From positions 1 to 36,074 of the forward strand of contig CAMCSO010000009.1 in the NCBI GenBank assembly GCA_945877545.1: a stretch of DNA of 36,074 nucleotides. Direction: 5' to 3'. The position numbers and the translations under genes are program-made. Position 1 is the stretch's first letter. Every line of letters starts with the position of its first letter. Source of the DNA: Bifidobacterium breve. GTDB taxonomy: Bacteria > Actinomycetota > Actinomycetes > S36-B12. The notes beneath the pieces are model-generated. The model was not told where the DNA came from and ran no database searches. It saw nothing but the letters and a program-made list of their open reading frames with translations. This document shows positions 29,565 through 35,123 of this stretch, one piece after another.

Positions 29565-30509
29565 ATGACCGTTTTGGCTGACGACCTAACCGCCCAGCGA
29601 CTGCTCATCGATCTCGAACCTGTCGTCGAACGTGAGCTCAATCGGCACCTGTCGACTGCCAAGGAATGGTTTCCCCACGAGTACATTCCGTGGGACGAGG
29701 CCGAGAACTTCGACGGCCCACTCGGTGGCCGCGAGTGGACACCGCAAGAGCGTCGATTCAGTGAGGCGGCTCGCACCAGCCTCATCATCAACCTTCTCAC
29801 CGAGGACAACCTGCCGAGCTACCACTACGAGATCGCCACTCACATGGGTCGCGACGGGGCCTGGGGTACCTGGGTGGGGCGTTGGACCGCTGAGGAGGGT
29901 CGGCATGGCACGGCGATCCGCGACTACCTGCTTGTGACGCGGTCCGTCGACCCGATTGAACTTGAGCGCGCCCGGATGATCCAAATGGAGGCTGGGTTCT
30001 CGGCGATCCACCCGGGCCTGCTCGGCGGGCTTGCCTACGTATCATTTCAGGAGCTCGCGACCCGTGTGTCACACCGCAATACCGGCACCGCCACCCAGGA
30101 TCCGATTGCGGAGCAACTGCTCGCCCGGATCGCTCTCGATGAGAACCTGCACATGATCTTCTACCGCAACACCTACGCCGCGGCACTCGACCTCGCGCCG
30201 GACCTTGCGATGCGGTCAGTGACAGATAATGTGCGCGATTTCGCCATGCCGGGGCACGGAATCGAGGGTTTCGGTCGAAAGGCGGTCGAGATCGCGGTCG
30301 CCGGAATCTACGACCTGAAGCAGCATCGCGATGAGGTCATCATGCCGGTCCTCCGAAAGTGGCAAATTTTCGAACGCAATGACTTCGGGCCACAGGGGGA
30401 GGCGGCGCGCGACGAACTCTCTGCGATTCTCGCCGATATGGATGTTGCGGTGGATCGCTTCGAGGAGCGTCGCGAGGCGCTTCGGGCCCGGTTCGCTGCG
30501 CGCGACTGA
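29565..30509 (+). CDS. Acyl-[ACP] desaturase (DesA-type, di-iron)
   Basis: This soluble stearoyl-ACP-desaturase-like enzyme of 314 residues introduces double bonds into fatty-acyl chains for membrane lipids. Di-iron ligands are the Glu in LLTEDNLPSYHYE, the E-x-x-H in TAEEGRHG and the E-x-x-H in DENLHM. The start TAQRLLIDLEPVVERELNRHL and WFPHEYIPWDEAENF are typical of actinobacterial DesA1/DesA2. The probable leaderless promoter lies just upstream, and the protein is intact. Immediately downstream is a decayed region, so this gene is the last intact one before the kinases. Confidence 0.93.
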   Translation: MTVLADDLTAQRLLIDLEPVVERELNRHLSTAKEWFPHEYIPWDEAENFDGPLGGREWTPQERRFSEAARTSLIINLLTEDNLPSYHYEIATHMGRDGAWGTWVGRWTAEEGRHGTAIRDYLLVTRSVDPIELERARMIQMEAGFSAIHPGLLGGLAYVSFQELATRVSHRNTGTATQDPIAEQLLARIALDENLHMIFYRNTYAAALDLAPDLAMRSVTDNVRDFAMPGHGIEGFGRKAVEIAVAGIYDLKQHRDEVIMPVLRKWQIFERNDFGPQGEAARDELSAILADMDVAVDRFEERREALRARFAARD

Positions 30510-30517
30510 ACACCGAG

Positions 30518-30816
30518 ATGTTCGGCATATGGGTGCTCGCCGAGTCACTGAGTGCCTGCAGGCTGGGGTTTCATGGCCGAGGCGGTCGCATCTGACGAGC
30601 CTGCGGGGGCGGTGATCGAGCCAGGGTGGAGGTGTCTGGATGTTGCTGGACCTCTCGATTTCGCAATGGATCGGTGTCATGCCCGGAATCACCGGTTGTC
30701 TCGCACGCAAGGCTGTGAGCGTGTTCATCCTCTCCACCTACGACACTGGCTACGTTCTTGTGCGCGAGTACCCGGTGCATGACGACTGGCCGATGAGCAG
30801 TCGAAACAGTGGATGA
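30518..30816 (+). pseudogene. Frameshifted ACT-domain protein (CASTOR-like) remnant
   Basis: Three frames must be joined to read a small ACT-domain protein. ATG 30518 gives WVLAESLSACRLGF and then a stop. A second frame gives IEPGWRCLDVAGPLDFAM (30606-30659). After one extra base the third gives IGVMPGITGCLARK and VFILSTYDTGYVLVRE up to TGA 30814. The last phrases match the ACT domain of actinobacterial CASTOR/DUF-type proteins (S-T-Y-D-T-D-Y-V-L-V). The normal C-terminal helix after YVLVRE is missing. The gene is therefore inactive unless the reads contain errors. Confidence 0.7.
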
Positions 30817-30828
30817 TCGAGCGTCGCT

Positions 30829-31297
30829 TCATTCGCGATCGGCCTCAACCTCGGCCAGTTTACTGAGGGTCCCCTCGGGAAGCCACTTCGCCTGGTTGCC
30901 CTTGAAGGTCCGGGGCATGATCCACGGTCCGAAGCAGGCACTGGTGCCACAGCGTGCGCTGCCGCGTGTGGACGGTGCTGGTCAGCATGTGATCGTGGCG
31001 GAGGCGCACCGTCGTGGTGGGCATGAGTTGCTGGGCGATCGACGCCGTGGATGATTCTCGGGTGAACTGCACGTAGTCGTCGATGCGAGTCCAGTTGCGG
31101 AAGTCCTCGACGAATGTGCCGGGGTCGCACGGGTCGCTGGTAACGAGGGAGAGCGGGTTCGGATCTGCGAGGTTCCGCTCGACTCCACGCTCGACGAGGG
31201 CCACCTGCTCGGGGGTAAATGCCCATCTGACGCGGACGGCACCTTCGCGCGCGAACTCGCTCACGGCGCCGACCGGCAGATTGAATCCAGACATCAC
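30829..31297 (-). pseudogene. Phytanoyl-CoA dioxygenase family gene, deleted and frameshifted
   Basis: The N-terminal part reads FNLPVGAVSEFAREGAVRVR, then ALVERGVERNLADPNPLS and TTTVRLRHDHML, ending at TLWHQ, which is a typical PhyH N-half including the start of the H-x-D iron site. The expected core of about 45-50 residues, including the iron-site Asp, is then absent. The sequence resumes in another frame with CFGPWIMPRTFKGNQAKWLP, the family's later region, and ends at TGA 30829-30831 after EVEADRE. The C-terminal iron His is lost. The gene is a deletion remnant on the opposite strand to the ACT pseudogene. Confidence 0.7.
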
Positions 31298-31401: not shown

Positions 31402-33258
31402 GTGGTGAATTTCGAGGCGATCTGGGCCCGGCGAACGGTGCCGGAGCGATGGTCGGCCCGAGACGCGATCATCGGTCAATGGTCGATCTCGCCGCTGCTC
31501 TGGCTCGTGTCGATGCCGTTCATCATCGCCGTCCAGTATTCCCGTCTCGAGGAGAATTTCGACTGGGACAACACTCAATTGCTCGCCGTCAGCGCGCTCG
31601 GTCAGATCGTGGCACTGGCCGTCCTCCTTGCTGCGCGGCGCTTCGGCGGCTTGCGGGCAGGCGTGCGGGATCGCAGCCTGATCGCGGTCGTCTTCATCTG
31701 GTTCGTCGCAGGGGGAGCGGCCGGCGCCGTGACCGCGCTGTTTCTCGCGCGGATCCAACTCTTCCCTGGTCCCCGCGGATTCGTCGTGGTGTCCCTCATG
31801 GGCATCACGACGATCGCCATTTACTCGCTCGTCTCCTTCACGATCGGAGTGCTGCGCGGTCACCGGGACGAGGTTGACAGACTCCGCGCACACCGCGATG
31901 TGCTCGTCCTTCGAAACCAGGAGTCCGGGGCCTTCGCGGACGATCAGCTGCGACTGCTGCGCGCCGCGCTTGACGAGGAAGTCCTGCCCGTCTTTCGCGA
32001 GCTCGGGGAGCGTGTCGATGCGCTCAGCTACCGTCCTCTTCAGGGGGAGCTCGAGCAGTTGCGGCTGCAGGTCATCATCACATCGGAGTCAATCGCCCGG
32101 CGCGTCGATGATGGCATCGACAGTGCGGTCCAGGTTCGGCGGGCGAATCGGCTGAGCCGGATCGCCCGGGGCCGCCGGACCGACGGGGGTCGGATGAGCA
32201 TCCTCCTCGGTTCGTCGGTTCCAGCCCTCCTCGGTTGCGTCATCGTGGTCCTCTTCGCCTTCGTGGAGCGAGTTCGCGGGTGCCTGACCATCTCGTTCAT
32301 CATGACGATCAGCATGATCCTCATCGTGCTGGCCGGAGCTGCCGTGCGCCGGTACACGTCAGGGGATCCGCCGGGTGCCCGTCTCGCAGTGGGCGCGGCC
32401 ACGCTCGGGTCGCTGCTCCTGGTCTTCTGGGGGGCGACCCGTCTTGAGATTGCCGGCTGTGCCTGGACTGGGTCGACTGAGCTCTTCATCACCTCTGCGT
32501 GCACCCTGGCAGGGGCCCTAGTGTTCGCCGGCGTGTCCGTCGAGGCGGATCGTCAGTTGAAGCTCATGAAGGACGAGGTTCGTGACACAAACGTTGCATT
32601 CCACGCCGCAGTCGCAGCCCTGAACGAGACCGGTTGCACTCTCCGTGATCAAGTTTCGCATGTTCTGAACGGGGTTCTTCAGGGACGACTCGCCGCCGTG
32701 TCGATCGCCCTCCAGTCCCATGTTGACGACCTCGGTCGGGGCGGGCACCCGAGCACGGAACTACTCGTGGAGCAAGTGACAGCACTGCTGCGCCTCGCAG
32801 ACCGAGACATAGCCGAGATCGTCACCGAGCCGGTGCAGCCGCTTCAACTTGACGAAGCGCTCAGTCAACTTCGAATTCGCTGGGCTGGGCTCCTCACCCT
32901 CGGATGGGACATCGAGTCTGAGGCGCAGGTGCTGCTGGACGATGACGTCATCCTGCTCCGATGGGCGAAGGAGGTTATCGATCATGCGGTGAGAAACTCG
33001 AGCAGACACGGTGGGGCGACAGCGATCACCATTCAGGTGAGCACTACGTGGGTGGAGGCCGGGTGGCTCGGCATTCGGGTGAAGGACAATGGAGTCGGGC
33101 CCGGGCCTGATGAGGCGCTGGGCGGAACGGGTGCAAGATCGGTGACAGCACGCCACGGCATCTGGGTACTGCGGGGTCGAGCGGCCGGTGGGGCTGAGCT
33201 CATCGTGGACTTGCCCGGTCGTCGATGGTCGAGCGATAACGATGACCAACATTCGTGA
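31402..33258 (+). CDS. Eight-TM histidine-kinase-like protein, degenerate (pseudo-kinase)
   Basis: The protein has 618 residues. Four TM segments (residues ~31-47, 59-78, 92-115, 126-150) are followed by a cytosolic helical linker (~150-265) and four more TM segments (~267-375). A dimerisation helix and a HATPase_c-like domain (~500-612) end the protein. The position of the phospho-acceptor His in the HisKA_3-like phrase reads VLNGVLQGRLAAVSIAL, with Asn (codon AAC 32668-32670). The N-box, HAVRNSSRHGG, has His (32983-32985) where the catalytic Glu belongs. The G1 box DNGVG is kept. GTG 31402 or 31405 are both possible. The stop is followed by the second kinase. ATP binding may survive; autophosphorylation is unlikely. 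Confidence 0.82.
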   Translation: MVNFEAIWARRTVPERWSARDAIIGQWSISPLLWLVSMPFIIAVQYSRLEENFDWDNTQLLAVSALGQIVALAVLLAARRFGGLRAGVRDRSLIAVVFIWFVAGGAAGAVTALFLARIQLFPGPRGFVVVSLMGITTIAIYSLVSFTIGVLRGHRDEVDRLRAHRDVLVLRNQESGAFADDQLRLLRAALDEEVLPVFRELGERVDALSYRPLQGELEQLRLQVIITSESIARRVDDGIDSAVQVRRANRLSRIARGRRTDGGRMSILLGSSVPALLGCVIVVLFAFVERVRGCLTISFIMTISMILIVLAGAAVRRYTSGDPPGARLAVGAATLGSLLLVFWGATRLEIAGCAWTGSTELFITSACTLAGALVFAGVSVEADRQLKLMKDEVRDTNVAFHAAVAALNETGCTLRDQVSHVLNGVLQGRLAAVSIALQSHVDDLGRGGHPSTELLVEQVTALLRLADRDIAEIVTEPVQPLQLDEALSQLRIRWAGLLTLGWDIESEAQVLLDDDVILLRWAKEVIDHAVRNSSRHGGATAITIQVSTTWVEAGWLGIRVKDNGVGPGPDEALGGTGARSVTARHGIWVLRGRAAGGAELIVDLPGRRWSSDNDDQHS

Positions 33259-33323
33259 AAAGTCTCGCGGAGAGAGGGCCGTGCGGCCATAGGCTCTGCC
33301 GAGGGGGGTGGCTGGAGGTTGCG

Positions 33324-35123
33324 GTGAAGAAGGCGGTGGTCGACTACTCCTTGCTTCATTCGCTGAGGAGTCGCTGGTCTACGTCGCCGCTGATGTGGCT
33401 GGTGGCCGCTCCCGTGCAAATCAGTGGAATTGTCATCCGTAACTCCGCCCTTCACCCGGACAGCGAGGCGTTAATCGTCCTGCTCGCTGTGATCGCAGAA
33501 CTTTCGGTGCTGCTCCTGCTCATGATCGTGGCGCGGCAGCGCTCGACGTGGGGCCGGTTCCGGTCAATGAATCCAGGTCAGGTGCTCATCGTCTGGGTCG
33601 GGTGCGGAGCACTTCTCACCGTCATCATGGAGTTGGGCGTCAATCTGCTCATCGGGGGAGGAGGCCTTGGACTTGGTGTCCGACTGCTGTGGACGACGGG
33701 AAGCACGATCGCATTGTTCGGTGTTGCCACGATGATTGGTGCTGGTGTCGCTGAGCGGCAGGCTGCCATCGTGCGCCTTAGCCTTGCAAATGAGCGAGTC
33801 ATGCGGCTCGGGGCTGCGTCGCAACGTTTCGCTGAAGACCAGCGCCTACTCCTTGCAGATGCACTCGACGAAATGGTGATCCCCGCCCTCGAGCAACTTG
33901 CAGAGGAGACAGAGGAACTCAATCGGGCTTCCCATAGCGACTTAGAGCCGCTGCAGGGGCGTGTCGCGTTTTACTCCGAGACGATCATCCGTTCCCTCAG
34001 CAGGGAGGTGTCGACCATTGCCCCGCAGTGGTTGGATCCAATGCCGGCGCCCGAATCAAGAATCGGCTTTACTCTTCGGGGGCTCCTAGATCTCCTCATA
34101 ACGGCCAGGATTCGGATCCTTCCATCAGCAGCCTTCATAGTGATCATCCTGTGGGCCCAGATCGTGCCCTCATGCCTCCCGCGTGATGTGCTGGTTTTGG
34201 CGAGCGGCGTGATCATCGGATCCATCGGATACTTAATTTGGCGCTCGGTTTCGGCTGACTCACCTAGGGGTGCAGGATTCGTCAACCTCGTGATGTATCC
34301 GGCGATCGGCGCTGGATTCGTGTGGAGCGCCCGTACGCCGATCCTTGCCTGCACGTGGGAAGGCACAAACCCTCAATTGGCCGTGGTGGTGTGTATTGGG
34401 TTGGCGTGCTTGGCATTGATCGCCATGGCACTCGAGGTTGATAGACGCTCACGGAATGACGCAGCGGCGCTAGCCTCTCGTATTCGCGTGGGGGAGGCGT
34501 TGGCTGCGGAGTTGGAACGTGCTGGTGAACGAATGCGCGATCAGGTGTCACTCGTGCTCCATGGTTCCGTCCAAAGTCGACTGACTGCCGTTTCGCTTGC
34601 CCTGCACGTCCACATGGAGCAGGTGAGGGCAGGTGGTAACCCCGATCAGCGACAACTCCTTGAGCGCGTGACCATACTTCTCGAGCGGGCCGTGGGTGAT
34701 GTGCAGTCGGTTTTTGCGCAGGAGCCCCCTCCCGCGAGCATCGACACGCGAATGCAGGCCATGCAAGCTCAGTGGCTTGGACTTCTCGACATCACCTGGG
34801 GAAGGTCTCCGAGGGCCGCAGAGGTCCTTGGAGCCGATCCCGAATGTGCTGTGTGGGTCTTTGAGATCCTCGGGGAGGCGATTACGAATGCCAGCCGTCA
34901 TGGAATGGCAGGCTCAGTCAACCTGCGAATTGATGTCGACCATGAGACGGGCACGTTGCTTGTCATCACCGCGAGAGACGATGGCGTCGGACCGCCGAAC
35001 GACATGCGGGAGGGTCTGGGTACCCATCGAATCAGGGCCCGCGGCGGATCCTGGGCCCTTGAAGCGGGGCAGGAGGGCGGGTCTCGAATGACCGTGACCC
35101 TCCCGATCGACTCAGGTCGCTGA
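33324..35123 (+). CDS. Eight-TM sensor histidine kinase, paralogue with intact catalytic residues
   Basis: The protein has 599 residues with the same 4 TM - linker - 4 TM - kinase layout as its upstream neighbour (start STSPLMWLVAAPVQISGIVI). The phospho-acceptor motif reads LVLHGSVQSRLTAVSLAL, with His at codon 34560-34562. The N-box GEAITNASRHG keeps Glu (34875-34877) and Asn, and the G1 box is DDGVGPP, with a G2-like GLGTHRIRARGG. It probably senses a membrane signal; no receiver gene adjoins. GTG 33324 is preferred because GGAGG is at 33314-33318. The frame's earlier GTG at 33255 overlaps the first kinase stop by 4 bp and lacks an SD. Confidence 0.85.
   Translation: MKKAVVDYSLLHSLRSRWSTSPLMWLVAAPVQISGIVIRNSALHPDSEALIVLLAVIAELSVLLLLMIVARQRSTWGRFRSMNPGQVLIVWVGCGALLTVIMELGVNLLIGGGGLGLGVRLLWTTGSTIALFGVATMIGAGVAERQAAIVRLSLANERVMRLGAASQRFAEDQRLLLADALDEMVIPALEQLAEETEELNRASHSDLEPLQGRVAFYSETIIRSLSREVSTIAPQWLDPMPAPESRIGFTLRGLLDLLITARIRILPSAAFIVIILWAQIVPSCLPRDVLVLASGVIIGSIGYLIWRSVSADSPRGAGFVNLVMYPAIGAGFVWSARTPILACTWEGTNPQLAVVVCIGLACLALIAMALEVDRRSRNDAAALASRIRVGEALAAELERAGERMRDQVSLVLHGSVQSRLTAVSLALHVHMEQVRAGGNPDQRQLLERVTILLERAVGDVQSVFAQEPPPASIDTRMQAMQAQWLGLLDITWGRSPRAAEVLGADPECAVWVFEILGEAITNASRHGMAGSVNLRIDVDHETGTLLVITARDDGVGPPNDMREGLGTHRIRARGGSWALEAGQEGGSRMTVTLPIDSGR

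Follow-up and report, generated by a model that had tools for sequence, protein, structure and literature searches.

We found that two neighboring genes in the 36,074-nucleotide window (the whole stretch of DNA that was analyzed) encode paralogous sensor kinases with eight transmembrane (TM) helices, the upstream one (P) being a putative natural pseudo-histidine kinase and the downstream one (K) a likely active kinase. Our preferred reading, to which we assign a probability of roughly 50%, is that P, K, and a response regulator (RR) form a P-K-RR two-component system in which P is a non-catalytic subunit that sets the activity of K through pairing of DHp domains, the domains by which kinases dimerize and dock their regulators. 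In the ancestor of the genus, an 8-TM kinase would have been duplicated in tandem, giving rise to P and K beside a LuxR-type regulator to which K would donate phosphate. P would have lost its normal phosphorylation site and had its ATP site weakened, while retaining the sensor in the membrane and a DHp helix pair that is nearly invariant; it would pair with K through DHp, and its own 8-TM sensor would set the activity of K. In the following, G000 denotes this genome and G001–G004 congeneric genomes; coordinates are collected in Table 1.

Table 1. Positions of P, K, their key residues, and nearby genes in the window
Feature	Position	Strand	Basis or remark
P, putative 618-aa 8-TM pseudo-histidine kinase	31402..33258	+	open frame; K paralogue; orthologues in G001, G002, G003
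K, 599-aa 8-TM sensor kinase, His and N-box Glu kept	33324..35123	+	start (probable) set from relatives; orthologues in G001-G004
P DHp domain, residues 412-475	32635..32826	+	lowest dN/dS within P and invariant-site enrichment
P Asn423 codon (AAC), phospho-acceptor His replaced	32668..32670	+	aligned on family His
P His528 codon, N-box Glu replaced	32983..32985	+	family alignment
K His413 codon (CAT), presumed phospho-acceptor	34560..34562	+	invariant outside P clade
K N-box Glu518 codon	34875..34877	+	alignment
DUF5122 beta-propeller repeat gene, cut by contig end	35208..36074	+	PF17164, E 4.7e-26; synteny with G002
PhyH (phytanoyl-CoA dioxygenase) pseudogene	30750..31297	-	three fragments in three frames, two deletions

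The two genes are codirectional and separated by 65 bases, both frames are open, and the proteins align as paralogues from end to end (26% identity, E 2e-51). The listed start of K at 33255 is probably too early and the true start is probably the GTG at 33324, because G002 and G003 carry an in-frame TAG upstream and their proteins align from the equivalent GTG; a GGAGGT precedes this codon. Hydropathy profiles gave eight strong TM segments in P and nine peaks in K, arranged as four plus four around an internal region of ~ 120 residues. AlphaFold2 models of moderate confidence (mean pLDDT 75–77) showed the same layout for both proteins, namely, two sets of four TM helices joined by a long helical linker and followed by a two-helix DHp and then a GHKL domain. 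TM4 and TM8 each extend into a very long helix followed by a second antiparallel helix, and the GHKL alpha/beta domain follows the C-terminal helix pair only. The unusual layout that the initial annotation had described for both neighbors was therefore confirmed by alignment, hydropathy, and structure prediction.

The helix preceding the ATP-binding domain had been called HisKA_3-like, which proved to be a loose description. The HisKA_3 H-box is HDxxxQ, with an acidic residue at +1 and Gln at +5, whereas the family of P and K has an HGxxQ box, with Gly at +1 in 78 and Gln at +4 in 86 of the 91 members outside P; P itself retains this Gln (Gln427). Pfam HisKA_3 (PF07730) gave no match to either protein at E values up to 10, and a match in only one of 27 relatives (0.0018). 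The motif HDLVIQ is present in another, sister kinase of G000. For HATPase_c, P scored 23.1 and K 25.8 bits, both under the 26.4 cut-off, and 23 of 27 relatives matched at E<=0.1. The GHKL fold was evident from the AlphaFold2 models and from Foldseek matches to DesK, VraS, and DosS, with TM-scores (by target length) of up to 0.70 for the ATP-binding domain of P. The DesK kinase core was the best match of both models, and the RetS-GacS complex (PDB 7n0e) was also among the matches. The nearest NCBIfam models, UhpB and MctS, scored far under their cut-offs, and Pfam gave no PAS match. P and K thus resemble the DesK/UhpB/LiaS class (HPK7) in their best structural match and in having a LuxR-type partner regulator, but differ from it in the HGxxQ box, in having a helical hairpin within the series of eight TM helices, and in lacking a Pfam HisKA_3 match.

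It was also observed that 8-TM kinases with the HGxxQ box and an adjoining LuxR-like regulator form a large family (for example, loci L003–L192), which is frequent in the order but thinly represented elsewhere in the class, and almost none of whose members are matched by Pfam HisKA_3. In one distant relative (L190, G328:C1:688000-694000), the kinase seems to be split into adjacent N-terminal and C-terminal frames. The cytosolic linker of P and K (residues 135–235 of K) resembles a vestigial DHp-like hairpin. When the N-terminal half was compared with the C-terminal 4TM-DHp half by hhalign, the two aligned collinearly with a probability of 96% and a score of 59–61, compared with no more than 41 for 60 local shuffles and with 20–22 for reversed profiles. 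The TM bundles alone gave no duplication signal with hhalign, so an origin of the whole family from an internally duplicated 4TM-DHp unit is suggestive only.

In the family alignment, Asn423 of P falls on His413 of K, and His528 of P on Glu518 of K, which bears out the earlier observation that P has Asn at the phospho-acceptor position and His in place of the N-box Glu, and that K keeps both residues. Of the 95 members in the alignment, 90 have His as the acceptor, four have Asn, and one shows an Ala, which comes from a misaligned N-terminal piece of a split gene. The four Asn are those of the P orthologues of G000–G003, and Asn occurs at this position in no other aligned member. The N-box replacement is less uniform: His, confined to P among these 95 members, is present in G000, G002, and G003, and G001 has Asp. 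Some members with an intact acceptor His, a minority, also lack the Glu and carry Asp, Gln, Ala, or Ser instead; loss of the Glu was therefore rejected as a marker of inactivity. P retains Asn532 of the N-box as well as its G1 box (DNGVGP), while its G2 box reads GGTG compared with EGLG in K and is eroded further to GSAA in G001. Some weak binding of nucleotide by P may persist.

P could be an ordinary kinase if it used another residue of the same helix, such as His420, three residues before Asn423, but this is very improbable. His420 is found in P of G000, G002, and G003, yet in G001 it is replaced by Leu (RDQVTLVLNG), and His440, 17 residues beyond Asn423, is common to K; the N-box Glu has been lost as well, and the G2 box is altered. 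A replaced acceptor His, with the replacement conserved among orthologues, would class P as a pseudo-histidine kinase. The status proposed in the initial annotation is supported by the fixed Asn, by the constant tandem with K, and by purifying selection. K was described there as intact, and this holds for its His and N-box Glu; an acidic residue after the His is absent throughout the family, so we regard kinase activity of K as likely but no firmer than that.

We compared dN/dS between G000, G002, and G003. Overall values were 0.26–0.29 for P, 0.30–0.40 for K, and 0.08–0.09 for the response regulator. Within P, the DHp domain had a dN/dS of 0.08–0.09, near the value of the regulator, compared with 0.22–0.38 in the other regions of P and 0.32–0.54 in the DHp of K. 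Invariant sites made up 56 of 64 DHp positions in P and 318 of 551 elsewhere (Fisher p 1.3e-6), and no such enrichment was found in the DHp of K (p 0.67). The first DHp helix is also where P and K are most alike (50% identity, compared with 18–31% in the TM bundles, linker, and CA domain). It is the best-conserved segment between K and the outgroups as well (42%), so the similarity of P and K there is partly family-wide. The sensor of P evolves fast, with 55% identity between P proteins in TM1–4.

That P is a decaying gene without function is, in our view, the least probable of the explanations considered. Its N-terminal sensor does evolve fast, and the adjacent PhyH is a true pseudogene in G000, but the frame of P is open in four genomes, its dN/dS is ~ 0.27, and its DHp is near-invariant. 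PhyH, which is intact (268 aa) in G002 and G003, itself shows what decay looks like at this locus, being broken into fragments in different frames. Because the part of P under strongest constraint is the domain that dimerizes kinases and docks regulators, P is most likely retained for contacts rather than for catalysis. The same constraint makes formation of a P-K heterodimer plausible. It is compatible with either K or the regulator as the contact, and would equally follow from a P homodimer that binds the regulator.

This last arrangement is the chief rival of the preferred reading, though we consider it unlikely: a homodimer of P would target the regulator directly, serving as its dedicated phosphatase or, in the manner of DivL, as a sink or sensor for its phosphorylated form. 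The retained Gln427 of the H-box is compatible with phosphatase action, and the constraint on the DHp of P matches that on the regulator. Phosphatase activity of kinase cores often needs the nucleotide pocket, however, and that of P is altered. A role as a sink or sensor has a precedent in DivL, which binds DivK~P without kinase or phosphatase activity (PMC4211667). Against both versions, the invariant tandem with K suggests that P and K work jointly.

Tandems of the P-K type were found in all of the only five genomes of the genus that were available, two of which are ~ 60% complete, and nowhere else in an order-level search; the two genes thus co-occurred wherever we could check the genus, with the upstream gene of G001 truncated by the start of its contig. 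Scanning genome contigs with K as a single protein query gave no match, and an alignment-based scan matched nothing beyond the genus itself and distant single kinases. In a 37-member tree, the upstream copies of this genus grouped together, the downstream copies formed their sister group, and single-copy genes from other genera branched outside both. A smaller tree recovered the same two groups with support of 85/85 to 85/90. Both copies of G004, the earliest-branching genome, likely belong to these respective groups. While the upstream copy of G004 has kept the acceptor His, its N-box carries Asp and its G2 box lacks the glycines (VDGAHRRIE). Read on this tree, the decay of catalysis would therefore have been stepwise, affecting the ATP site (N-box and G2) first and the His later.

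The initial annotation had also stated that no response regulator adjoins the pair, which is true only inside the window, since the contig ends there. In related genomes, Pfam Response_reg matches adjoin the kinases, in 20 of 20 longer stretches and 14 of 16 shorter ones, some of these stretches being copies of one gene. The gene order is RR-HK outside the genus and P-K-RR within it. The regulator (Response_reg 46.2 bits) has a LuxR-like C-terminus with a weak GerE match, and its receiver residues are in place, namely, Asp (VVTDLHL), Thr (VLTSH), and Lys (YLVKS). Its orthologue in G000 lies outside the window at C240:1-633, where it opens the contig, and is 93% identical to that of G003. The other 3.6 kb of C240 are 85–88% identical to, and collinear with, the region that comes after the regulator in both G002 and G003. 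The K and regulator genes of G002 are separated by a DUF5122 gene of ~ 1.1 kb, and it is within the counterpart of this repeat gene that the window contig ends. Because C240 opens with the regulator and synteny with G002 spans the DUF5122 gene, absence of the regulator from the window is best explained by an assembly break at the repeat. Loss of the regulator from G000 was ruled out by the same observations. A receiver-domain regulator is thus conserved beside the kinase, with an orthologue in this genome, as in a two-component system. G000 and G002, and not G001, G003, or G004, carry the DUF5122 gene as an insertion separating K from the regulator. We also considered whether the acyl desaturase encoded two genes upstream (29565–30509) is linked to the pair as in DesK systems, and rejected this as a conserved association: those single-copy relatives that were checked either lack the desaturase or have it on a different contig.

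RetS and GacS of Pseudomonas are not tandem duplicates, and their sensor domains differ from those of P and K. In this pair, as cited in PMC9491836, one sensor kinase controls the other via hetero-oligomerization. DivL of Caulobacter is a pseudo-histidine kinase whose retained DHp binds partners and which controls another kinase (PMC4211667). It resembles P in the conserved replacement of the phospho-His and in the retained DHp. Unlike P, DivL has a Tyr acceptor, keeps the other kinase motifs, senses through PAS domains, and did not arise as a tandem duplicate of the kinase it controls; P has Asn, an altered N-box and G2 box, and an 8-TM sensor, and so lacks the Tyr acceptor and PAS sensors that define the DivL family. 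An actinobacterial comparison is ChrS/HrrS of Corynebacterium glutamicum, in which a dead kinase likewise acts with a live paralogue (PMC9491836). The ChrS pseudokinase arose by a frameshift during laboratory evolution and was stated to be undescribed in nature (PMC9491836), whereas P occurs naturally and is old. HrrS and ChrS each have a regulator of their own, while for P and K there is a single locus with a single regulator.

ChrS also bears on the direction of control. P and K might form a heterodimer in which P activates or recruits K, which is the role suggested for the ChrS pseudokinase toward HrrS. In C. glutamicum, that pseudokinase raised ChrA output via HrrS, and native ChrS and HrrS heterodimerize (PMC9491836). 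We consider activation improbable for P, but sequence leaves the sign of the effect undecided, and that P restrains rather than activates K is our inference. It is doubtful that every element of a fuller account holds at once, namely, a fixed three-gene system, an upstream copy that is an obligate heterodimer subunit inhibiting or gating K, stepwise loss of catalysis, and an HGxxQ family whose internally duplicated membrane half carries a vestigial DHp-like hairpin.

Only a few heterodimerizing histidine kinases had been reported as of 2022 (PMC9491836). An exact-phrase literature search for histidine pseudokinases or the HGPxQ motif returned nothing relevant. To our knowledge, natural pseudo-histidine kinases are rarely documented. 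Beside the known precedents of DivL, RetS/GacS, and ChrS/HrrS, what would be new here is a natural tandem of a putatively dead and a probably live kinase sharing one regulator. The host group consists of uncultured actinobacteria, and the HGxxQ 8-TM family is common in its order yet poorly covered by Pfam. With the dead and live copies adjacent, an intermediate stage in a living relative, and the single ancestral gene in outgroups, the surviving stages would make the origin and purpose of a pseudokinase directly testable.
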